Both the position numbers and the translations under genes were made by a program. DNA of 64,000 nucleotides from Streptomyces alboniger (GTDB lineage: Bacteria > Actinomycetota > Actinomycetes > Streptomycetales > Streptomycetaceae): assembly GCF_008704395.1 (NCBI RefSeq), contig NZ_CP023695.1, forward strand, positions 3,968,001 through 4,032,000, written 5' to 3'. Below the pieces are notes generated by a model that was not told the DNA's origin, did no database searches, and worked only from the letters and a program-made list of their open reading frames with translations. Shown here piece after piece: positions 27,499-37,883 of this stretch. Positions within the stretch are counted from its first letter, which is position 1; each line of letters begins with the position of its first letter.

Positions 27499-28791
27499 TC
27501 AGGTGGCGCTGACCGGCTCGGCCTCATTCACGTCGTACATGCCGAGGTGGCGGTTGAAGACGACCCAGGTGATGGAGGTCGCGAGGCCGCAGGCCGCGAT
27601 GACCAGGGCCGTGGTGGGGCTGAGGAACTGGGAGACCGTGCCGCCCACGAGCGCGCCGATGGGCTCGAATCCCAGCGTCGTGAAGCGCATCGCTGAGGTG
27701 ACCTGGCCGATCATGTGCGAGGGCGTCACCATCTGCTTGATCGTCTCGCTCATGACCAGGTTCACGACGATGGCGAAGCTCCACAGGAACATTCCGGCGG
27801 CCACGGACAGGAACTGGAGAACGGAGGAGCCCAGCAGTTCGGAGCCGGGGACGAGGAACGCGCCCACGGTGGGTACGACCAGGGACAGGACGTAGAGCAG
27901 CCGGGTACGCACCTTGCTCATGAACGTGGAGGCGGCTGTCGCGGACAGGACGCCGCCGAGCCCGCCGGCCGCGCTCGCCAGGCCTACGAGGAGGGGGCTG
28001 AAGCCCAACTCCTTGACCACGTAGTAGGTGTAGACGGCGAAGAACATCGCGGTGAAGAAGTTGAAGTGGGCCGCGGAGACGATCACCGGACGCAGCACGC
28101 GGTGGGAGAAGGCCCAGGTGAAGCCGGACAGGGCGCCCTTGACCGTCTCCTGCTCGGCATCTTCGTGGCCGGCCTCGGCATCCTCTTCTCCGGTGTTCTT
28201 CGCTTCCTCCTTCGCCCCCTTCCTCGTGCTGTCCCCCGACCCGAGCAGCAGCACCGTGCTCGCGATGTAGCTGCACACGTCGGCGACCAGGGCCAGGGGT
28301 GCCCCCAGCGCCTGGACCAGGAGGCCTCCCAGGCCCGGGCCCGCGACCTCGCTGACCGCGGTGCTGCCCTCCATATACGAGTTGATCTTGGGGAGCTGGC
28401 GGCGGTCGAACGTCAGGACCACGTGCGAGGACAGAGCGGAGTCGTAAAGGAGCGTGAGGGCCCCGACCAGGAAGACGGTGACGAAGAGCAGGGGGATGCT
28501 CAGCACGTCGAGCGCGTAGGCCACCGGGATCATCCCGATCAGCAGCAGGCGCAGGATGTTCGCCGTCACCATGACCGACCTGCGCGGGTAGCGGTCGGCG
28601 GTCATGCCCACCCATAGCCCCAGCAGCAGCACGGCCAGTGACTCGGCGCTGCCGAGCAGGCCCATCTCGAACGCGGAGGCGTCGAGGGTGCCCAGGGCGA
28701 GCAGCGGGATGATGACCACGCTGGCCTGGGTACCGAACAGGGATACGGTCTGGGCAGTCCACAGGCTTCTGAAACTGCTGTCTTTGAGCAC
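27499..28791 (-). CDS. MFS exporter
   Basis: A 430-residue 12-helix major facilitator protein of the EntS/TetV-like drug-exporter type. It starts MLKDSSFRSLWTAQTVSLFG and has the loop 2-3 motif GMTADRYPRRSVM. The central cytoplasmic loop holds an unusually acidic insert (GEEDAEAGHEDAEQE). GTG 28791 has GGAG 7 nt upstream. It is the last gene of the leftward arm of the candidate peptide cluster and probably exports the product, like MccC in microcin C loci. A hairpin at 28846-28882 separates it from the oxygenase gene. Confidence 0.9.
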   Translation of the reverse strand: MLKDSSFRSLWTAQTVSLFGTQASVVIIPLLALGTLDASAFEMGLLGSAESLAVLLLGLWVGMTADRYPRRSVMVTANILRLLLIGMIPVAYALDVLSIPLLFVTVFLVGALTLLYDSALSSHVVLTFDRRQLPKINSYMEGSTAVSEVAGPGLGGLLVQALGAPLALVADVCSYIASTVLLLGSGDSTRKGAKEEAKNTGEEDAEAGHEDAEQETVKGALSGFTWAFSHRVLRPVIVSAAHFNFFTAMFFAVYTYYVVKELGFSPLLVGLASAAGGLGGVLSATAASTFMSKVRTRLLYVLSLVVPTVGAFLVPGSELLGSSVLQFLSVAAGMFLWSFAIVVNLVMSETIKQMVTPSHMIGQVTSAMRFTTLGFEPIGALVGGTVSQFLSPTTALVIAACGLATSITWVVFNRHLGMYDVNEAEPVSAT

Positions 28792-28845
28792 GTCGAACTC
28801 CTGGCGGCACGCCGGTAGATCTGATGAAAGCGGGGGCGGACATCA

Positions 28846-28882
28846 CCGCACGGCTCTGCCTGTGGTGGCGAGAGCCGTGCGG
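28846..28882 (-). terminator. Intra-operon hairpin between oxygenase and exporter genes
   Basis: CCGCACGGCTCT and AGAGCCGTGCGG form a perfect 12-bp stem with a 13-nt loop in the 147-bp gap. It may attenuate or protect the message. Confidence 0.5.
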
Positions 28883-28938
28883 GGGTCAATAGTCGGCCGC
28901 CGGGGCCCGTCGAGGCGAGCCGTATTCCGGAGCGGCCG

Positions 28939-29748
28939 CTACTTGGCCGTACCGGACTCGGCCGTACCGGACTTGGCCGTGCCGAAGTGGACGGCGACGG
29001 AGAAGCGCACCCAGGACCGCGAGCGGATCGTGCACACGCTGTGGTGGTAGCCGGGGTTGATCCGCAGGAGCGCCAGGCGCCCTCGCTCGGGCTGCGTGGC
29101 CAGGGCGGCGCCGCTGGGAGCCTCCACGACCAGTTCACCGCCGTCGCCCGCGGACCAGCCGGGCGAGAGGAAGAAGACGAGCCCGAAGCGCCGGTCGTCG
29201 AAGGTGTCGGAGTGGCGGCGCAGGTAGTGGCCGGCCTCGTACCTGGCGATGTCGGCCGAGCGGAAGGAGACGCTCTCGCCGAACGCGGAGGAGAACGCGG
29301 CGGCCACCTTTTGGCTCTTGAGCGCGGAGATGAAGGCGCGGATGCCCAGGGCGGACCGGGGGATGTCGCGCAGGCAGCCGCTGCGCGAGAAACGCCGCTC
29401 GGGGGCTGCCTCGGTGAACTCCTGTTCGCTGCACGGCTTCACGTCGTCATCGGGGGTGAGCAGCCAGTGCTCCGTGTCCCAGGTCGGCAATGCGGCCAGC
29501 TCGGAGACGAGGGGGGCGGTCATGTCCGCCGGCATCAAGGGCAGGCTGGTGGCCGGAGCGTCGCTTCCCGGCCGCAGCAGACCGAGCGCTTCCGTCACGG
29601 GGGCCGCGGTCAGCATGCCGATCGTCCTGGCGTGGAAGGCGATCGCGGCGTCCCTGCTCATGTGGTCCATCGCAGAAGCGGACTGCTGGTCCGGGACGGA
29701 AGTGGACTGCCGGTCCGTGACAGAAGTGGTCTCTGCCGAGTCCTGCAT
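28939..29748 (-). CDS. 2-oxoglutarate/Fe(II)-dependent oxygenase
   Basis: A 269-residue protein. The double-stranded beta-helix core shows RRHSDTFDDRRFGLVFFLSP with the H-x-D pair, then NPGYHHSVCTIRSRSWVRFSVAVHFG with the distal histidine and the 2OG-binding arginine, as in prolyl-4-hydroxylase-like enzymes. The start has GAAGGAGAGG, a very strong ribosome-binding site. The C-terminus ends in short repeats (GTAKSGTAESGTAK) from a 15-bp tandem DNA repeat. In the candidate RiPP cluster it would hydroxylate the peptide or a precursor amino acid; substrate unknown. Confidence 0.88.
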   Translation of the reverse strand: MQDSAETTSVTDRQSTSVPDQQSASAMDHMSRDAAIAFHARTIGMLTAAPVTEALGLLRPGSDAPATSLPLMPADMTAPLVSELAALPTWDTEHWLLTPDDDVKPCSEQEFTEAAPERRFSRSGCLRDIPRSALGIRAFISALKSQKVAAAFSSAFGESVSFRSADIARYEAGHYLRRHSDTFDDRRFGLVFFLSPGWSAGDGGELVVEAPSGAALATQPERGRLALLRINPGYHHSVCTIRSRSWVRFSVAVHFGTAKSGTAESGTAK

Positions 29749-29787
29749 CTTGCCTCTCCTTCGATCGGTAGGGGTCTCGCCAAGGGA

Positions 29788-31407
29788 TCAGCGGACCCTG
29801 GTCACCCGGTTCTCGTCCCACACCGGTTCCTGCGTCTGCACGACCTCGCCGTCGGAGCGGAAGAGGAGGTAGCGGTTGAAGGAGCTGGCGAGCCAGCGGT
29901 CGTGGGTGACCACGACGACCGTGCCGTTGAACTGTTCGATGGCCTGCTGTAGTGCCTCGGCCGAGACCAGGTCGAGGTTGTCCGTCGGCTCGTCGAGCAG
30001 GAGCAGGGTCGCGCCGCCGAGTTCCAGGAGCAGGATCTGGAACCGCGCCTGCTGTCCTCCGGAGAGCGTTTCGAAGCGCTGGTCCGCCGCGGCCGCCAGT
30101 TCGTAGCGCGAGAGCATGCCCGCGGCGGCCCCTCGGTCCAGGCCCTCGCGGATGCCCTCACCGCGGCCCATGATCTCTACGAGCGTCTTGCCCGCCCACT
30201 CCGGATGCTGGTGGGTCTGGGTGAAGAAGCCGGGTACGACCCGTGCGCCGAGGCGCCAGGAGCCCGTGTGGTCCACGTCGAGGCCGGCCAGCAGCTTCAG
30301 CAGGTGGCTCTTGCCGGAGCCGTTCGACCCGAGCACCGCGACGCGGTCCCCGAGGTAGATCTCCAGGTCGAACGGCTTCATGAGGCCGGTCAGTTCCAGC
30401 TGCTCGCACGTGATGACGCGCGTTCCGGTGCGCCCGCCCGTCAGGCGGGGGACCACGCGCTGCTCCCGGGGCAGCTCAGGCGGCCGGCCGGCTTCCTCGT
30501 ACTTGCGCAGCCGGGTCTGGGCGGCGCGGTAGCGGGGCGCCATGGCGGCGCTGATCTTCGCCTGCTCGCCGAGCGTGTGTACCAGTTCCTTGAGGCGTTC
30601 GTGCTCCTCGTCCCACCGGCGGTGCAGCTCGGCCAGCCGCTCGCGCCGCGCCTGGCGGGCCTCCTTCCAGCCGGTGAAGGAGCCGCCGTGCACCCAGGTG
30701 GTGCGGCCTTCGAGGGCTACGACCTTCGTGGCGACGTTGCCCAGCAGGGCGCGGTCGTGGCTGACGAGGAGCACGGCCTTGTCGGTCGTACGCAACTGCT
30801 CCTCCAGCCACCGCTTGCCCGGGACGTCGAGATAGTTGTCCGGCTCGTCGAGGATGAGTACCTGCTCACGCCCGCGCAGCAGCGCTTCCAGGACGAGGCG
30901 TTTCTGCTCGCCGCCGGAGAGGGTGTTGACGTCGCGGAAGCGGGCGCGGTCGAAGGGCATGCCGAGCGCCGCGGTGGTCACCACGTCCCAGAGCACCTCG
31001 ATCTCGTAGCCGCCGGCCTCGCCCCAGGTGCCCAGCGCCTCGGCGTACCGCATCTGGGTGGCCTCGTCGTCGCGCTCCATCAGCTCTAGTTCGAGAGCGT
31101 CGATGTCTGCCGCCGCCGCGGCGATCCGCTCGGGGGCGGCGGCCAGCAACAGATCCCGCACGGTCGACTCATCACGTACGGAACCGATGAACTGCGGCAT
31201 CATCGCCAGGCCGCCCTGTACGTGGACGGCGCCCGCGCGCGGCTTGAGGCGCTTGCCCGCGACGTTGACCAGGGTGCTCTTCCCCGCGCCGTTGTGGCCG
31301 ATCAGCGCTGCGACCTCCCCGGCGCCCACGGAGAAGCTGACGTCTTCGAACAGTGTCCGCCCGTCGGCGAGATTGCACTCGACACCGTTGAATTCAAGGA
31401 ATCCCAT
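29788..31407 (-). CDS. ABC-F ATPase (possible ribosome-protection/self-resistance protein)
   Basis: A 539-residue soluble protein with two ABC ATPase domains and no membrane spans. Domain 1 has GHNGAGKST, LSGGEQKR and LILDEPDNYLD. Domain 2 has GSNGSGKSH, LSGGQQAR and LLLDEPTDNLD. The linker (about residues 235-315) is charged and helical, as in ABC-F proteins that act in the ribosomal E site. In antibiotic clusters these give self-resistance to ribosome-targeting compounds; others are general translation factors. It is divergent from the precursor-like ORFs, sharing a 234-bp promoter region. Confidence 0.9.
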   Translation of the reverse strand: MGFLEFNGVECNLADGRTLFEDVSFSVGAGEVAALIGHNGAGKSTLVNVAGKRLKPRAGAVHVQGGLAMMPQFIGSVRDESTVRDLLLAAAPERIAAAAADIDALELELMERDDEATQMRYAEALGTWGEAGGYEIEVLWDVVTTAALGMPFDRARFRDVNTLSGGEQKRLVLEALLRGREQVLILDEPDNYLDVPGKRWLEEQLRTTDKAVLLVSHDRALLGNVATKVVALEGRTTWVHGGSFTGWKEARQARRERLAELHRRWDEEHERLKELVHTLGEQAKISAAMAPRYRAAQTRLRKYEEAGRPPELPREQRVVPRLTGGRTGTRVITCEQLELTGLMKPFDLEIYLGDRVAVLGSNGSGKSHLLKLLAGLDVDHTGSWRLGARVVPGFFTQTHQHPEWAGKTLVEIMGRGEGIREGLDRGAAAGMLSRYELAAAADQRFETLSGGQQARFQILLLELGGATLLLLDEPTDNLDLVSAEALQQAIEQFNGTVVVVTHDRWLASSFNRYLLFRSDGEVVQTQEPVWDENRVTRVR

Positions 31408-31641
31408 GATTCTGAGCTTCGTTCTCTCGGCTTTGGAAGATGCGCTGTGTGCGGGCTCGGAATTTCATGTTCCGGTTTTCGTGATCCGCCCAAAGGGTCC
31501 ACTACCCCTCCCGGGCGTTGCTTCAATCCCCCGTGCCAATCCTTTATTCCCGCCGCAGTATTCCTTCCGCGGTACGGCTCCAAAGGCCCTCACGCGTTTC
31601 ACGGATCCTGCCTGGAGAGATTGGCGAACACAAGGGAAGAA
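31408..31641. promoter_or_regulatory. Divergent promoter region of the candidate peptide cluster
   Basis: A 234-bp region between the ABC-F gene and the 29-residue ORF, clearly richer in A/T than its surroundings. TTGCTT at 31514-31519 with T-rich sequence about 20 nt downstream is a weak promoter candidate for the rightward genes. No operator palindrome was seen. Confidence 0.4.
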
Positions 31642-31731
31642 ATGTCCGCATTGAAGGCGTTTAGTGCACTTTGCGTGGAAAATAAAAATCCTGCCCTGAA
31701 GATGCTTGACAAGCACCTAGGAGAATGGTGA
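31642..31731 (+). CDS. Candidate 29-residue peptide gene upstream of the precursor
   Basis: ATG 31642 to TGA 31731 encodes MSALKAFSALCVENKNPALK followed by a MLDKHLGEW-type end. AGGGAAG lies at good spacing before the ATG. Codons such as AAT and AAA are unusual for this genome. It could be a second precursor, a leader peptide or a small accessory protein. The single Cys11 is internal. Confidence 0.5.
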   Translation: MSALKAFSALCVENKNPALKMLDKHLGEW

Positions 31732-31781
31732 AGCTTCCTGGCGTCAGAGCAATTCAGTTCCGATGCACATGAGGAGCGACA

Positions 31782-31901
31782 GTGAACGAGAACGTTACTG
31801 AGACCGCAATTCAGGTTGCTACGCAGGAGCAGGATGACATCTTCTTCATCGAGGAGATGGACGTGGCCGACGCCGCTCAGGTGATGGTCCACCGCTGCTG
31901 A
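31782..31901 (+). CDS. Candidate RiPP precursor peptide (39 residues, C-terminal Cys)
   Basis: GTG 31782 is preceded by a perfect GAGGAG (31770-31775). The peptide starts MNENVTETAIQVATQEQDDI, continues FFIEEMDVADAAQV and ends MVHRC. The acidic body with an FFIEE-x-DVADA segment resembles leader peptides recognised by RRE domains. The basic last residues HRC are the likely core. A strong hairpin begins 11 bp after the stop, and the next gene is an RRE-E1 fusion, so the synteny is that of a precursor and its modifying enzyme. The precursor role is inferred. Confidence 0.68.
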   Translation: MNENVTETAIQVATQEQDDIFFIEEMDVADAAQVMVHRC

Positions 31902-31912
31902 CAATGTGAGTC

Positions 31913-31945
31913 GGAGGGCAGCCCCGTAAAGCGGGGCTGCCCTCC
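31913..31945 (+). terminator. Strong hairpin (attenuator) between precursor and MccB-like gene
   Basis: GGAGGGCAGCCCCG and CGGGGCTGCCCTCC form a perfect 14-bp stem with loop TAAAG, without a T-tract. It lies 11 bp after the precursor stop, where RiPP operons often carry an attenuator that raises precursor over enzyme transcripts. Confidence 0.75.
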
Positions 31946-32002
31946 AGCTCCTTGCACATGTGCGTGTTATTCGCTTCCTGCCTCAAGGATGTGTCGCGGG
32001 CT

Positions 32003-33010
32003 ATGCGTGTATGGCTGAACCCTGCCTGGCAACTGGAATCGGCCGGCAGCACGGTGACGTTCCAGGGCGAGAAGAAGAAATACGTCCTTGATGACAGTAA
32101 AGGCGTGGTCAGCCGACTGATGGCCGCCCTTGAAGACGGCTGCGAAAACGAAGCCCTGAAAGCGCTGACCAGCCGCGACTCCGACTGCGAAAGCCTCGTC
32201 AGAGCCCTGCGCAAACGCGGCCTTCTCATCGAGTCGCCCTCGGGGCCGGCCGGCGACGACAGCATCCATGCCCGTCAGTGGGGGCATCTGGCCCTGCACA
32301 CCCCCCGCCCTGACGAGGCACAACGCCGTATCTGCGATGCCACGGTCATGGTCATGGGCGTGGGGGGCACCGGCAGCGTGATCCTCCAGCACCTCATCGG
32401 GGCCGGGGTCAGGCGCTTCGTACTCGTCGACACCGACAACGTGCAGCTGAACAACCTGAACCGCCAGTTCACCTTCCCCAGGGCGGCCGTGGGCGAACCC
32501 AAACTGGACGCGTCCCAATCCTATATTCGTGACCGTGTGTCAGACGCCGAAGTCTCGCTCGTCGACCGGTTCGTCACATCATCCGCGGACATCGAAGAAC
32601 TCCTCGAAGCGCATACGGACGTCGATGTCATCGCCGTATGCATAGACCAGCCGATAGGCAGCATCTCTGATGCGGTGTCCGAATCTGCCTGGGGTCGGGA
32701 TGTGCCGTCCATATTCGGTGGAGTGGGTATGCAGCGCGGATTCTATGGGCCGCTCTTCGCGCCCGGGAAATCAACGGTTACTCCGGAGCGGCTCGCCTTT
32801 TCCGCGCGCGCGGATGACGCTGGGTCGACTGCCGATTCCGGAGATCTGCGGAGCACGCGCTATTCGTTCGGCCCCCACAACACCATTATCGGTGCCTGGA
32901 TGGCCGCCTCGATTATTCACCACATCGCGGGTATCACCGAACTCGTCGACTACGACGTACGGAAAATCATCGACTTCGAAACCGGCCGTATCACTGCCCA
33001 GACCCGGTAA
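32003..33010 (+). CDS. MccB-like E1/ThiF peptide-adenylating enzyme with RRE-like N-terminus
   Basis: A 335-residue protein, the length of MccB. Residues 1 to about 85 look like a PqqD-type recognition element: an opening beta-hairpin (MRVWLNPAWQLESAG) followed by a winged-helix-like part ending LVRALRKRGLLIES. The E1 fold then shows VMVMGVGGTGSVILQHL, the acidic residue in FVLVDTDNVQ, and NNLNRQFTFPRAAVGEPK. These correspond to the ATP-binding residues of MccB, ThiF and MoeB. No CxxC zinc pairs are visible. MccB adenylates the C-terminal residue of a short peptide; this one may act on the Cys-ended peptide upstream. ATG 32003 chosen with AAGGA upstream; the frame opens at 31952. Confidence 0.82.
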   Translation: MRVWLNPAWQLESAGSTVTFQGEKKKYVLDDSKGVVSRLMAALEDGCENEALKALTSRDSDCESLVRALRKRGLLIESPSGPAGDDSIHARQWGHLALHTPRPDEAQRRICDATVMVMGVGGTGSVILQHLIGAGVRRFVLVDTDNVQLNNLNRQFTFPRAAVGEPKLDASQSYIRDRVSDAEVSLVDRFVTSSADIEELLEAHTDVDVIAVCIDQPIGSISDAVSESAWGRDVPSIFGGVGMQRGFYGPLFAPGKSTVTPERLAFSARADDAGSTADSGDLRSTRYSFGPHNTIIGAWMAASIIHHIAGITELVDYDVRKIIDFETGRITAQTR

Positions 33011-33110
33011 ACAAGCGCCCGGCGCACTGAAGGCCCCGCCGAGCGCGCTTCGCCTAACGGCACGGGTTCGCGCCAAAGACGCGGCGGTATCGCGCCAAAG
33101 GGGAAGCGGC

Positions 33111-34436
33111 ATGTCCAAGCCGATCCGAGTGGAAACGGACCTCATCCCGTCGGGCCTCTACGGCGCGGCCGACGACTGGACCGGCCTGACCATCACGCGC
33201 CAACTCGCCCGCCCGCTCTTCGTGGAGGGCCCCGGCCGCACCCTGATGCCAGGCCTGTTGCACCAAGCGCAACGCCTGGACGAGAAACGCTGGGACTTCG
33301 CCCTGCGGCCCGGTGCGCGATGGTCCGACGGCCTGCCGATCCGCGCTCTCGACGTCGCCCGGCACCTCACGGCGGTCGCCAGGCAGGCCGGCCCCTTCGC
33401 CTGGCTCGTGTCGCTCATCGAGCAGATACGGCCCCTCGGCCCCGACCGGCTGCGGCTGACCACCCGCCTCCCCGTGGGCAACCTTCCCGCACTCCTGGCC
33501 AACCCCGTCTTCGGCCCCCGGCACAGCGACCCGGCCATCACCAGCGGCGCCTACACCCTGGCCGACGCGCCACCGGGCGAACTCCGCCTGCGGGCAACCG
33601 GTCCCGGACCCGATGTCACGTACGTGCTGTCCTCCGACGCCCAGCACGGTCAGCGCCTCTTCGACCGGAGAGCCGTCGACATCACCTGCCCGACGACGTT
33701 CCCCGTGCCCCAGTGGGCACGCCGCGCCGACTACCCCGACCTCCAGGTCGACGACCTCGACATCGCCGTCGCCCTCCTGCCGCCGAGTGGCATGGCCGCC
33801 GAACGCAAACGGGCCGTCGCCGCCGCCCTCGACCGCCGGGAGCTGTCCCGCAGGCTGCACGGCGCCATCAGCCCACTCGACTCCCTGACCGGGCTGTGGG
33901 ATCCGGGCCGCCCCGTCCCACCGGCCCGCGCGGCCCGCGAACTGTTCCCGGCGGCCGGGCGCACCCCCATGCGCCTGGTCTTCCCGGACTTCTCACCGAA
34001 CCGGGAGACGGCCCACGTCCTCGCCGAGCAGATCGGCGACCACACCGGACTCACCCTGCGGCCCGAGGCCATCGACTACCGGGCGTATCTCACCCAGCTC
34101 CCCACTACGCACCGCGAAGACTTCCGGCTCGTGCTGATGGCCTCCCCATGGCCCGATCCGGTCTCCCTCCTCCTCCCCTTCACCCGGCGCCCCGCGGCCC
34201 AGTTGCCCGGCGGGCCCGCGTCCGCGTTCAAGGACCTCGTGCACCACGCCCTGGCCGCGGACGACCTCGACGACCGGCTCGCCCGCTGCGCGCAGGCCGA
34301 GCAGTCGCTCAACGCCACCGGCGAAGTGTGCGTGTTCGGACGGCTCAGGTCGGCGGCCCGGCTCCGCGTGAAGAACTACGTCAGCCCGCCGTCCGGCTGG
34401 GCGGACCTGTCGGTATGCGAACCCCCGCAGGACTGA
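33111..34436 (+). CDS. Solute-binding-protein-like (SBP_bac_5/OppA fold) without export signal
   Basis: A 441-residue protein resembling peptide-binding proteins of ABC importers. Recognisable segments are LARPLFVEGPGRTLMPGLLHQ, WDFALRPGARWSDGLPIRALDVARHL and later DFRLVLMASPWPDP. ATG 33111 has a strong GGGGAAG. The N-terminus MSKPIRVETDLIPSGLYG has no signal peptide or lipobox, and no permease genes are nearby. It is therefore probably cytoplasmic and may bind the peptide or an intermediate. SgrR-type regulators also use this fold but carry a helix-turn-helix, which is absent. Confidence 0.8.
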   Translation: MSKPIRVETDLIPSGLYGAADDWTGLTITRQLARPLFVEGPGRTLMPGLLHQAQRLDEKRWDFALRPGARWSDGLPIRALDVARHLTAVARQAGPFAWLVSLIEQIRPLGPDRLRLTTRLPVGNLPALLANPVFGPRHSDPAITSGAYTLADAPPGELRLRATGPGPDVTYVLSSDAQHGQRLFDRRAVDITCPTTFPVPQWARRADYPDLQVDDLDIAVALLPPSGMAAERKRAVAAALDRRELSRRLHGAISPLDSLTGLWDPGRPVPPARAARELFPAAGRTPMRLVFPDFSPNRETAHVLAEQIGDHTGLTLRPEAIDYRAYLTQLPTTHREDFRLVLMASPWPDPVSLLLPFTRRPAAQLPGGPASAFKDLVHHALAADDLDDRLARCAQAEQSLNATGEVCVFGRLRSAARLRVKNYVSPPSGWADLSVCEPPQD

Positions 34437-34444
34437 GGACAGCG

Positions 34445-35191
34445 ATGGCAAAGATCAATTATCTCAAGGTCAACGAGCGGTACTGGGACTCCAACAGCGA
34501 GCTGTACCACGACGCCCACCCCGAGCACTTCGACGCCGCCCGGCACCCCTCCTGGGGCATCTGGCACCTTCCGGAGAGCGACCTCAGGATCTTCACGGAC
34601 GACCTTCCGGCCGGCTCCCGGATCATCGACCTCGGCTGCGGCATCGGGCACGACACCGAGGGGTTCGCCCGCGCCGGGTTCCGGGCCTACGGCGTCGAAC
34701 TCTCCTCCGGCCAGCTCTCGCGGGCCCTCGGCGGGCAAGCCGCGGGTTTCGTCCAAGCCGCGGCGGAGCGCCTGCCGTTCCGTTCCGGAGTCTTCGACGC
34801 GGCCTTCTGCGACCACGGCGCGTTCGATTTCTCCCCACCCCGGCGCCTGCTCGAAGAGGCGCACCGCGTGCTCCGCCCCGGCGGCATCCTCGGCCTGTGC
34901 ACCTACTCCCCGCTCCTACAGATGTGCTTCGACAACCAGAGCGGCACGGTCGGCGAGCACCTCGCGAACCCCTATGGCGACGCCCGGATGAAGTACGGCG
35001 GCGACGTGGTCGTCTTCCACTCCACCTACGCGCAGTGGATCGACATGTTCCGGGACTGCGGATTCACCATCGAACGGTTGGTGGAGCCCACCGCCCCCGC
35101 CGACGGCGGCACCTACTTCAAGGAAGCCCTGGACCGGGAGTGGGCGGAGAAGTGGCCGGCGGAGGTGCTGTGGAAGGTGCGCAAGGCCTGA
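34445..35191 (+). CDS. SAM-dependent methyltransferase (class I)
   Basis: A 248-residue Rossmann-fold methyltransferase. Motif I is RIIDLGCGIGHDTEGFARAG at about residues 60-79, then YGVELS, FDAAFCDHGAFDF and the post-motif LLEEAHRVLRPGGILGLCTYSP. ATG 34445 lies 8 bp after the stop of the SBP-like gene with GAGGAC upstream, so it is in the same operon. Substrate unknown; O- or N-methylation of the cluster product is the simplest idea. Confidence 0.88.
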   Translation: MAKINYLKVNERYWDSNSELYHDAHPEHFDAARHPSWGIWHLPESDLRIFTDDLPAGSRIIDLGCGIGHDTEGFARAGFRAYGVELSSGQLSRALGGQAAGFVQAAAERLPFRSGVFDAAFCDHGAFDFSPPRRLLEEAHRVLRPGGILGLCTYSPLLQMCFDNQSGTVGEHLANPYGDARMKYGGDVVVFHSTYAQWIDMFRDCGFTIERLVEPTAPADGGTYFKEALDREWAEKWPAEVLWKVRKA

Positions 35192-35206: not shown

Positions 35207-37624
35207 TCAGTGGGGAGCCGTTTGCGCGAGTACCGTCGCGATGCCCTCGTGGGCCCGTGCCGCCGCGTACTGATTGCCGAGGCGCGGGGCCATGTCCAGC
35301 GCCTGGCGGTGCAGCCGCAGGGCCTCTTCGGGGAGGCCCGCGAGGCGGCAGGTCTCGCCGTAGCCGTTGAGGAAATGGATCTTCCAGTGCTCCTCGAACA
35401 ACTCGTCGAGCAGGGCGAAGGCCTCCCGGTGGCTGGCCAGGGCCTCCTCGTACCGGCCCATCTGACGCAGCGCGACGCCCTGGCAGTTGAGGCACCACGC
35501 CTGATTGTGCAGGTGCCCGTCGTCGCGGGCCTGGGCCAGGGCCAGGCGGAGGTGTTCCGCCGCCTCGTCGGGTGCCTCGTGGGCGAGGGCCACGCCGAGG
35601 GTGAGCCGGGCCGTCAGGGCAGGCGGCCACGCCGGGTCGGTGTGGGGGGTGTCCAGTACCGCGCGGGCCCGATGCGCGGCCTCCTCGCGCTGGCCCAGTT
35701 GCAGCATCGCCCAGGCCTCGGACGCGGCCGCGTGGGCGGCGCCCGTCGGGCTGCCCGACTTGTCGTACAACTTCCCTGCCAGCCGGAAGAGTTCGAGCGG
35801 CTCCGTCACCTGTCCCGCGTCCCAGCTCAGGTAACCGCGGCGCAGGGCGAGTTCGGCCTCGGCCCGTGCGTCGCCCGTCTGGGACACCCGGATCCCCGCC
35901 GCCTCGTACGCGGCCGCGGCCTCCGCCATGCGGCCCGCGTTGTAGCGCGCGAAGCCCAGATCGCTGTGCGCCTCCGCCAGTTGCAACGGGTCGCCCAGAC
36001 GTTCGGCGGCGGCGAGGGCGCGTTCGAAGAGGGAATTGAGGTGGGTCGTGCCGCAGCGCCGCGCGAAGTACGCGCGCAGGAAGCGCGGCAGCTCGCATAC
36101 GTGCGCGTCGGCTCCGACGGCGGCCGCCGTCTCGAAGGCCGCCATCAGATTTCCGTACTCCGCGACCAGCCAGGCGAAGGCCGCGTTCTTGTCGGAGAAC
36201 CGCGGCAGCTCGGCCGGCGCGCGCCCCGCTGCGGGAGGCCTGCCGGACGACAGGAACGGCATCGCCGCGTCGGCGGCGGCAGCCGCGTGTACGTAGTAGT
36301 CGAGCACCCGGCCGAGCGCGCGGCCCCGCTCCTCCTCCGAGTCCTGCTCCGCCGCGGCCCTGCGCGCGTGCTGGTGCACCAGGTCGTGCAGGCGGTACTG
36401 GCCCGCCGCGGGCTGCTGGACCAGGTGCGCGTCGAGCAGGTCCTCCAGCATCACCCTGGCGGTGCGCAGCGGCACGTCCGCCAGCGCCGCCACCACGTAC
36501 TCGTCGAAGGACGCCCCGGGCAGCAGGCCAAGCATCCGGAACAGGCGGGCCTGCGCCCGGTCCAGCTGCCGGACCGACATGGCGAACGCCCTGTCGAACT
36601 CGCTCGCGCCCTCGGCCAGCCGCTCGGCCAGGATGCCCACGGTCCAGCCGGGCCGGTGCCGCAGCCGGGCCGCCGCCAGCCGCAGCGCCAGCGGGAGGTG
36701 ACCGCACAGCCGCAGCACCTCCGCGGCGGACTCCGGATCGCGGGCCAGCCTGCTGCCGGCGCCGCCGGGGTCGCCGCTGGCGCGGGCCAGCAGCTCCGCG
36801 CTCTCCCGCGCGCTCAGCACGTCGAGCGAGACCGGGGGCACCTCGTCCAGGTCGAGGAGCCGGTTACGGCTGGTGATCAGGGCGACCGAGGGGCCCGCGC
36901 CGGGCAGGAGCGGGCGTACCTGCTCGGCGTCGGCGGCGTTGTCGAGGACCACGACGACCCGGCGGCGCGCCAGCTCCGACCGCCAGCAGGCAGCCAGCTG
37001 TTCGACACCCTCCCGCGGGACCCGTTCGGACGGGACGTCGAGGGCGCCGAGCAGCATCCGCAGCGCGGAGTCGGGGTCGAGGGGCGGCCGGCCTTCGGTG
37101 AACCCGTGCAGGTCCACATAGAGCTGGGCGTCCGGGAAGTCGGCGGCGAGCCGGTGCGCCGCGTGGATGACCAGAGCGGTCTTGCCGACGCCCGCCATGC
37201 CGTCGACGGAGACCGCCCGGTGACTTTCGACAGCGGTGAACACGGCGGCGAGCCGCTCCTCGCGCCCGGTGAAGTCGGACACGTCACGCGGCAGGTCGTT
37301 GCGGGGCAGGGCCCGGACCTGACGGCTGCTCTTCGGGGGCGCGGGCAACGGGGCCGAGGCCCGTTCCCACAGGGGTCGCAGCGGGCGGGGGTCGCGTTTC
37401 ACCAGGCGGCAGAGGGCGACCACCGCGGGCCAGGGCGGGGCGGTCTGACCGTTGAGGTAGCGCGACAGTGAGGACGAGCTGAGGCCGGTGTCCCGGGCGA
37501 GGGCCCGTACGCCGAGCCCGGACAGCTCCTGGAGCAGGCGCAACCGGGCGGCAAGCTCGTCCTGAGGGTCGCCCTTCGCTACGTGCCCACGTTCGGCGGC
37601 TCGTCCTTGACCGTGACCGTCCAT
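35207..37624 (-). CDS. STAND regulator: XRE HTH, NB-ARC ATPase, TPR repeats
   Basis: An 805-residue protein. The N-terminal helix-turn-helix is RALARDTGLSSSSLSRYLNGQT near residues 40-60. The NB-ARC P-loop is GMAGVGKTALV near 150, with VVVVLDNAADAEQVRPLLPGA as Walker B region. The C-terminal half holds TPR-like repeats (EAHSDLGFARYNAGRMAEAAAAYEA; QGVALRQMGRYEEALASHREA). Proteins of this AfsR-like type regulate secondary metabolism. It is convergent with the methyltransferase, only 15 bp apart. ATG 37624 was chosen; the frame continues through an octamer repeat to 37816, giving an unlikely GHGDTG-type extension. Confidence 0.88.
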   Translation of the reverse strand: MDGHGQGRAAERGHVAKGDPQDELAARLRLLQELSGLGVRALARDTGLSSSSLSRYLNGQTAPPWPAVVALCRLVKRDPRPLRPLWERASAPLPAPPKSSRQVRALPRNDLPRDVSDFTGREERLAAVFTAVESHRAVSVDGMAGVGKTALVIHAAHRLAADFPDAQLYVDLHGFTEGRPPLDPDSALRMLLGALDVPSERVPREGVEQLAACWRSELARRRVVVVLDNAADAEQVRPLLPGAGPSVALITSRNRLLDLDEVPPVSLDVLSARESAELLARASGDPGGAGSRLARDPESAAEVLRLCGHLPLALRLAAARLRHRPGWTVGILAERLAEGASEFDRAFAMSVRQLDRAQARLFRMLGLLPGASFDEYVVAALADVPLRTARVMLEDLLDAHLVQQPAAGQYRLHDLVHQHARRAAAEQDSEEERGRALGRVLDYYVHAAAAADAAMPFLSSGRPPAAGRAPAELPRFSDKNAAFAWLVAEYGNLMAAFETAAAVGADAHVCELPRFLRAYFARRCGTTHLNSLFERALAAAERLGDPLQLAEAHSDLGFARYNAGRMAEAAAAYEAAGIRVSQTGDARAEAELALRRGYLSWDAGQVTEPLELFRLAGKLYDKSGSPTGAAHAAASEAWAMLQLGQREEAAHRARAVLDTPHTDPAWPPALTARLTLGVALAHEAPDEAAEHLRLALAQARDDGHLHNQAWCLNCQGVALRQMGRYEEALASHREAFALLDELFEEHWKIHFLNGYGETCRLAGLPEEALRLHRQALDMAPRLGNQYAAARAHEGIATVLAQTAPH

Positions 37625-37629
37625 CGTTC

Positions 37630-37717
37630 CCCCGTGTTCCCGCATCCCCGTGTCCCCGTGTTCCCGCATCCCCGTGTCCCCGTGTCCCCGTGGCCCCGTG
37701 GCCCCGTGGCCCCGTGG
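37630..37717. repeat. Eleven tandem octamers upstream of the STAND regulator
   Basis: Consecutive 8-bp units on the plus strand: CCCCGTGT, TCCCGCAT, CCCCGTGT, CCCCGTGT, TCCCGCAT, CCCCGTGT, CCCCGTGT, then four CCCCGTGG. The tract ends 5 bp from the start codon at 37624 and provides the G-rich ribosome-binding region on the minus strand. Unit length is not a multiple of three. Confidence 0.85.
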
Positions 37718-37883
37718 CCCCGGCGCCGCGCGCCGCCGTCCCGCTCTGGCCGAAGTTTCCCGAGCCAAGTCGCCGCTGGTCAAGGCTTGTTCGGCTGTCC
37801 CACGGTGTCCCAGCACCGTGGTCCGGCCCGGCGGGGACGGCTGTTATGGAGTCACACCCCGAGGGAACGAGGAGAAAAACCAG

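Follow-up and report, generated by a model that had tools for sequence, protein, structure and literature searches.

Here we describe a seven-gene cassette of Streptomyces alboniger that is best read as a previously undescribed family of ribosomally synthesised and post-translationally modified peptides (RiPPs). It spans positions 27499-35191 of the window, the whole stretch of 64,000 nt that was analysed (positions 3,968,001-4,032,000 of contig NZ_CP023695.1, in a genome of one contig). The cassette holds a 39-residue precursor peptide and a predicted ThiF-family adenylyltransferase (E1), and we consider it rather probable that they belong to a ThiF-like RiPP pathway whose core consists of about the last three precursor residues. 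The product is probably a very small exported molecule and may act on ribosomes; our confidence in any single ring chemistry is low.

Precursor peptide and predicted adenylating enzyme

The precursor, (V/M)NENVTETAIQVATQEQDDIFFIEEMDVADAAQVMVHRC, ends in MVHRC-stop and starts five bases downstream of a GAGGAG ribosome-binding site, as the initial annotation of this DNA had described. An E1 scan of genome contigs yielded three related loci, from Streptomyces zhaozhouensis (L003), S. alfalfae (L004) and Streptomyces sp. BV286 (L005), which together with the window are called type I. The start codon is GTG in the window and ATG in the other three, and the 38 codons after it show 2, 2 and 3 residue differences from L003, L004 and L005, respectively. 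Pfam, NCBIfam and PHROGs gave no match to the peptide. The initial annotation had made its case depend on conservation in related loci; the peptide is kept in four genomes, which rules out a chance open reading frame.

Across more distant lineages the C-terminus holds the pattern, while the leaders share little between cassette types. In 15 of 16 cassette loci (the window, L003-L005, L017-L024, L055-L057 and L088) the precursor ends in x-Arg-[Ser/Thr/Cys], with VMVHRC in the four type I loci, GLARRC in L088, and the ending present in 11 of 11 distant-cassette precursors. For L020 and L088 the scans themselves demanded an R-[Ser/Thr/Cys] end, so these two precursors cannot count as independent support for it; no such condition was set for the others. 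Searched against 5.8 billion proteins, a profile built from motif-bearing peptides found 48 homologues with E<=10, of which 44 reach E<=0.0016 and four, P0122-P0125, lie above E 0.1. The R-[Ser/Thr/Cys] end is present in 41 of the 48 (RRC 18, VRS 12, HRS 5, VRT 4, HRC 2), or in 34 of 41 once seven peptides identical to the window's own or the query peptides are removed (P0080, P0081, P0084, P0092, P0094, P0099, P0100). Wherever a terminal Cys occurs in the 41 motif-bearing homologues it is the sole Cys, and none of them has a Cys elsewhere.

The E1 matches PF00899 at 2.2e-32, and its GxGGxG, DxD, NLxRQ and GxxK motifs are invariant in a 21-row alignment. Its structural model (predicted local distance difference test, pLDDT, 90) matches the fold of MccB over the full length, including a predicted N-terminal RiPP recognition element (RRE) of four strands and three helices, with pLDDT block means of at least 90 over residues 1-80. 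The RRE-like N-terminus that had been proposed from the sequence is supported by the model, and the MccB-type motif set is present as described. MoeB and ThiF match over the catalytic part only, and a sequence profile search ranked MccB first and PaaA next. A sulphur-carrier enzyme of the MoeB/ThiF kind, named at the outset as the competing outcome, was rejected, as the RRE is present in the model and MccB is the best match. The predicted fusion of an RRE to an E1 adenylation domain, with a conserved small precursor gene beside it in 4/4 type I loci and 15/16 cassette loci, places the cassette, by architecture, among the ThiF-like RiPPs. In the known enzymes of this kind a carboxylate is adenylated and a nucleophile attacks it, according to portions of two accounts (PMC12150305, PMC12250964), which also indicate that few such enzymes are characterised and that their reactions differ.

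In the cassette precursors it is the C-terminal carboxylate that is conserved, on a residue that follows Arg and is nearly always Cys, Ser or Thr; we therefore propose activation there and capture within the same unit. The initial annotation had suggested activation of a C-terminal Cys or of a short HRC core, and this is partly supported. Activation at the C-terminus is consistent with the conserved terminus and the MccB-like E1; a restriction to Cys does not hold, for Cys is terminal only in some lineages and Ser or Thr takes its place in others.

Conservation and diversity of the cassette

All seven genes keep the same order and orientation in the 3/3 type I relatives at 68-97% protein identity (ABC-F ATPase 88-97%, peptide 90-92%, solute-binding protein (SBP) 68-82%, E1 68-78%; others in Table 1), and a chance arrangement is dismissed on account of this synteny. 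L006 and L016 were left out of the count because, judged partly by coordinates, they share the contig of L003. Every feature listed in the initial annotation is present: the peptide with its ribosome-binding site, the hairpin, the E1 motifs, the SBP without a signal peptide and the methyltransferase on the plus strand, and, divergent from them on the minus strand, the major facilitator superfamily (MFS) exporter, the 2-oxoglutarate (2OG) oxygenase and the ABC-F, each with its Pfam or NCBIfam match. The hairpin between peptide and E1 comprises 15 pairs (-41.5 kcal/mol), and hairpins stand at the matching position in L003-L005 (z -7.5, -8.3 and -4.9). We can only guess at an attenuator of the expression ratio or an mRNA stabiliser, since the hairpin has no T run.

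Table 1 Features of the cassette, in window positions.
Feature	Position	Strand	Basis
MFS exporter, 430 aa	27499..28791	-	PF07690 6.2e-30; 77-85% identity and synteny in L003-L005
2OG-Fe(II) oxygenase, 269 aa	28939..29748	-	PF13640 9.9e-12; 69-80% identity and synteny in L003-L005
ABC-F ATPase, 539 aa, diverged paralogue of the near-universal Streptomyces ABC-F	29788..31407	-	NCBIfam 9.9e-84 (below cut-off); 65% identical genomic copy; tree
Shine-Dalgarno sequence GAGGAG of the precursor	31771..31776	+	sequence
Precursor peptide, 39 aa, GTG start, end VMVHRC-stop	31782..31901	+	conserved in L003-L005
Proposed core, codons of the C-terminal His-Arg-Cys	31890..31898	+	x-Arg-[Ser/Thr/Cys] end in homologues and cassette precursors
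Strong intergenic RNA hairpin, no T run	31913..31945	+	folding z -6.8; hairpins in 3/3 relatives
RRE-E1 (predicted MccB/PaaA-like ThiF-family adenylyltransferase), 335 aa	32003..33010	+	PF00899, alignment, profile, fold model
SBP_bac_5 (OppA/MppA-like) oligopeptide-binding protein without signal peptide, 441 aa	33111..34436	+	PF00496 1.9e-14; Foldseek
S-adenosylmethionine (SAM)-dependent methyltransferase, 248 aa	34445..35191	+	PF08241 4e-19; 85-91% identity in L003-L005

Downstream of the cassette, at 35207-37816 on the minus strand, lies a large HTH-STAND-TPR regulator that resembles HaaT/AfsR-type proteins, below the cut-offs of those models; the name HaaT comes from cyclophane RiPP clusters. 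Among L003-L005 it has a match in L004 only, at 27% identity.

Across the genus, 10 genomes out of 392 carry an E1 that matches at E<=1e-30, namely the window's own, G037 and eight with E1s of 32-36% identity; the window-type peptide is found in 2 of 392. The eight were opened as loci L017-L024. Six of them (L018-L022 and L024) form type II, with a small peptide gene, an SBP, one or two 2OG oxygenases, a radical SAM protein, the E1 and an MFS protein; the radical SAM protein of L022 combines PF04055 with the B12-binding PF02310, and in 7 distant cassettes the MFS protein is 41-43% identical to that of the window. L023 has peptide, radical SAM protein, SBP and E1, with no match for a 2OG oxygenase or a window-like MFS. 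A class-wide E1 search, in which 26 genomes out of 394 passed E<=1e-35, gave 30 places outside the window's own genome, 20 of which were opened; L055, L056 and L057 resemble L023 and make up type III with it (peptide, radical SAM, SBP, E1). A fourth lineage, L088 (L088:1-17001), was found by following the ABC-F instead and carries peptide, JmjC/Cupin_8 protein, SBP and E1, the JmjC/Cupin_8 protein standing where an oxygenase is usual. Across the 16 loci the peptide occurs in 15, the SBP in 15, and the ABC-F, a window-like MFS and a 2OG oxygenase in 11 each, besides the JmjC protein of L088.

The remaining 17 of the 20 loci opened in the class-wide search (L058-L074) have no SBP match at E<=1e-4 and were rejected as cassette members; their E1s, of other families, fall on the opposite side of a starred branch in the E1 tree. 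This tree, for which P0007-P0016 were realigned from a gapped alignment and the start of the L088 E1 was not fixed, does not establish a single origin of the cassette E1s, as P0007-P0016, interspersed among them, make three label changes necessary.

Several neighbours vary from locus to locus. Pairs of M16-family proteins are placed after the MFS gene in L017, L019, L021 and L022, with one M16 in L024 near the contig end; by analogy with the ind pathway, which has an M16 peptidase, they are probable leader peptidases of the type II-like cassettes. A 480-aa protein after the MFS gene of L018 (L018:11862-13304) has no Pfam match and looks ATP-grasp-like by eye only. An MFS protein and a P450 lie near the radical SAM-SBP-E1 genes of L055 (L055:1231-3792), and L057 encodes a second B12-binding radical SAM protein (L057:2701-5034).

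Binding protein, ABC-F and a candidate pathway

Foldseek matched the model of the window SBP (pLDDT 73) best to MppA, OppA, AgaA, DppE and NikA, and the titles of structure entries show that ligands solved in the MppA/OppA-type family include di- to pentapeptides. None of the 11 SBPs aligned, out of 15, begins with a signal-like stretch from the start codons we chose; the sequences begin with the fold itself. The maximal 12-residue hydropathy within the first 45 residues is 0.58 in the window SBP and 0.03-1.78 across the 11. The export signal peptide of an ABC-transporter solute-binding protein was thus not found. Beside a peptide-modifying E1, a cytosolic SBP is what we would expect of a holder of a short peptide intermediate.

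The cassette ABC-F matches NCBIfam ribosomal protection-like models below their cut-offs, with 282 bits against the 380 required for NF000355 and 226 against 800 for TlrC/CarA/OleB/SrmB. In each of the best 25 of the 201 NCBIfam models matched it stayed below the cut-off, and it was not assigned to a resistance family. The initial annotation had listed it among the cassette genes as self-protection. Its presence stands, with the correction that a second ABC-F in the same genome (G000:C1:6891649-6893262) is 65% identical to it and that the subfamily is near-universal, since 144 of the 150 genus genomes searched match it at E<=1e-150 and 14 of these do so twice (contexts were opened for some of the 14, leaving out G071, G094 and G115). 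In a tree of 30 ABC-F sequences the type I copies and L018 form one clade on a long branch (100/100), and L019, L021, L022 and L024 form another (100/100, long branch), so that 9 of the 11 cassette ABC-Fs stand apart from the common Streptomyces copies. This pattern fits a duplicate that may have been specialised for self-protection in these nine. L077 and L078 hold ABC-Fs of a clade next to that of the window (65-67%) in another gene set, with no E1 or SBP matches, which includes a radical SAM protein (L078:5552-6622) and, by eye, an aminotransferase-like protein; it is possibly a different ribosome-targeting cluster.

The same ABC-F invites a reading in which the product is no antibiotic at all: it would be a signal or cofactor, translation would be tuned by the ABC-F, and the SBP would serve as a sensor. 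Among the solved structures that match the ABC-F at E<=1e-40, YbiT and EttA come first, and the ubiquity of the subfamily points the same way. A dedicated exporter, the sparse spread of E1 and peptide in the genus, and the position of the cassette ABC-F as an extra copy beside the common one elsewhere make this unlikely in our view.

We propose the following pathway. The RRE of the E1 would bind the leader, as its modelled fold suggests, and the enzyme would adenylate x-Arg-[Cys/Ser/Thr] at its C-terminal carboxylate, to judge from the fold, the catalytic residues and the conserved terminus. More speculatively, a nucleophile would capture the acyl-adenylate, most likely within the terminal unit: the beta-SH or beta-OH of the last residue (giving a beta-thiolactone or beta-lactone), the guanidine of the Arg or its backbone NH (giving a diketopiperazine). 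The strict choice of Ser, Thr or Cys favours the beta-heteroatom, which we put before the Arg. The 2OG oxygenase and the methyltransferase, or a B12-radical SAM or JmjC protein in other lineages, would then tailor the unit, and the cytosolic OppA-like protein would hold the short peptide while it is tailored or afterwards, a role comparable to the apparent recruitment of substrate by CgnB/CgnE in crocagin synthesis. Finally, the MFS protein would export the product and the ABC-F paralogue would protect the ribosomes. A bolder version, which we hold only tentatively, is a class of ultra-small ribosomal peptides in which the E1 closes the terminal Cys, Ser or Thr onto itself or the neighbouring Arg as a beta-thiolactone or lactone, acylguanidine or diketopiperazine. 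An OppA-type carrier recruited from peptide import would carry the di- or tripeptide warhead in the cytosol, the ribosome would be the target and the duplicated ABC-F the immunity.

Several observations weigh against this pathway. Seven of the 48 homologues lack the motif (P0087, P0088, P0095, P0108, P0110, P0114 and P0124): three end in VRP and four extend past the usual end. We take them as metagenomic, as their sources are ena or jgi only, and they were kept in the denominator. The motif counts are themselves biased toward the ending, which both the profile and the L020/L088 scans presupposed, and the L055 precursor, outside the 41, has a second Cys in its leader. By fold Z, MoeB and ThiF rank above PaaA as relatives of the E1. 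The ABC-Fs of L057 and L088 group with the common copies, and no ABC-F was found in the fetched stretch of 5 of the 16 loci (L017, L020, L023, L055, L056). L017 retains 2OG oxygenase, radical SAM protein, E1, MFS and the M16 pair, with no peptide, SBP or ABC-F found; it is probably a remnant, and it was retained as a miss in every count. The window cassette has no leader peptidase, M16 proteins being seen in type II-like loci only. Lastly, conservation of the 39-mer exceeds that of the E1 beside it, synonymous sites included (38 codons), which is unusual for a mere leader. Over the six type I pairs its synonymous divergence (dS) is 0.09-0.15, against 0.34-1.23 for E1, 0.16-0.70 for the SBP, 0.18-0.59 for the methyltransferase and 0.17-0.64 for the ABC-F, although in the closest pair, L003-L004, it is only slightly lower than in the neighbour genes.

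The last two of these points speak for a reusable carrier, in which a load would be joined to the activated C-terminus of the 39-mer and later cut off, leaving a product with zero or one encoded residue. Strong conservation of the entire type I peptide is what such a scaffold would need. The great divergence of leaders between lineages, set against the pattern held by the last residues, and the lack of a Pfam-detectable ligase among the window cassette genes lead us to give this alternative little credence.

Relation to known systems

The nearest comparison is microcin C7 (MccB/MccA), with which the cassette shares the RRE-E1 architecture, the full-length fold match and a likely substrate in the last residue of a small peptide. 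It differs in that microcin C7 has a seven-residue precursor with a terminal Asn and a nucleotide, whereas Cys, Ser or Thr follows Arg here and ABC-F, SBP, 2OG oxygenase and methyltransferase are added. A Trojan horse of this kind, in which the E1 would add a nucleotide to the C-terminus and the resulting aminoacyl-adenylate mimic would inhibit CysRS, SerRS or ThrRS, could appeal to MccB as the closest solved relative of the E1. The chemistry of MccB depends, however, on the Asn side-chain amide, as a section of PMC12250964 states, and a C-terminal Asn occurs in 0 of 48 homologues and 0 of 15 locus precursors; the assignment to a microcin C type was rejected for that reason. Pfam finds neither a peptidase nor an acetyltransferase in the cassette, and an ABC-F would be unexpected as immunity against a synthetase inhibitor; we regard the Trojan horse as improbable.

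Pantocin A (PaaP/PaaA/PaaB/PaaC) likewise pairs an RRE-E1 with a 2OG oxygenase and an exporter and has three critical core residues. Its core is an internal Glu-Glu-Asn with a follower, its exporter is EamA rather than MFS, and its four-gene set has no SBP, ABC-F or methyltransferase. If the window E1 acted on the internal pair E24-E25, MDVADAAQVMVHRC would be the follower; the Glu-Glu pair is present in type I, and E1, 2OG oxygenase and transporter make up the pantocin gene set as part of PMC12250964 gives it. Of the 41 motif-bearing homologues, by contrast, only 29 contain Glu-Glu at all and only 7 have it in their final 25 residues, and the kept feature is x-Arg-[Ser/Thr/Cys]-stop. A pantocin-type core was rejected on these counts, and this route seems very unlikely to us.

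Three further kinds of E1 product were compared. GRC thiolactones (GrcA/GrcB) also have a 39-residue precursor, a ThiF-like enzyme and a terminal Cys, but their ring joins Glu35 to Cys39; residue 35 is Met here, Ser or Thr replaces Cys in relatives, and in the 41 homologues the closest acidic residue stands 6th to 18th when counted from the C-terminus. A GRC-type thiolactone was thus rejected. Enterofaecin (EnfB) and IndF resemble the proposed pathway in that the C-terminal carboxylate is adenylated and then captured within the peptide, and differ in their hydrophobic or Trp-bearing C-termini (WIVI; EDTTNWYFI) and gene sets.

Outside the E1 enzymes, crocagins (CgnA-E, CgnL) share a three-residue C-terminal core, a dioxygenase aided by dedicated peptide-binding proteins and a methyltransferase; in the part of PMC10070186 that treats them, CgnB/CgnE appear to recruit the substrate to the dioxygenase. 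Their binding proteins are M29-aminopeptidase-like and their core-making enzymes include no E1, whereas the binding protein here is of the SBP_bac_5 family, and a crocagin type was rejected. Cys, Ser and Thr are also exactly the residues that can be heterocyclised, so that the terminal residue might be cyclodehydrated onto Arg by a YcaO enzyme, with the E1 as its docking protein only. In ten cassette-bearing genomes, however, the part of the contig within 1 Mb of the cassette contains no YcaO match. The window's own genome has two, 3.3 and 3.8 Mb away, G170 with its type II cassette has none, and the E1 retains the invariant E1 residues. An azoline (LAP/TOMM) cluster was rejected accordingly, and we see hardly any chance for this chemistry.

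No known product could be named from the x-Arg-Ser/Thr/Cys sequence. Among the open-licence papers listed, none described a RiPP cluster joining an E1 with an SBP or ABC-F, subscription papers lying outside the search. The words Streptomyces, ABC-F and solute-binding are absent from the main text of a 2025 review of ThiF-like RiPPs (PMC12250964), and the cluster is not described in passages of PMC7136475 and PMC7470986.

The x-Arg-[Ser/Thr/Cys] terminus held across lineages offers a precise substrate rule for a new ThiF-like enzyme, and one that can be tested quickly. The cassette would bring a cytosolic oligopeptide-binding protein into the RiPP toolbox, and the combination of RRE-E1, signal-less SBP and ABC-F would give a compact signature with which actinomycete genomes could be screened for small candidate ribosome inhibitors. 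A possible antibiotic is also tied here to an ABC-F that is near-universal in Streptomyces.

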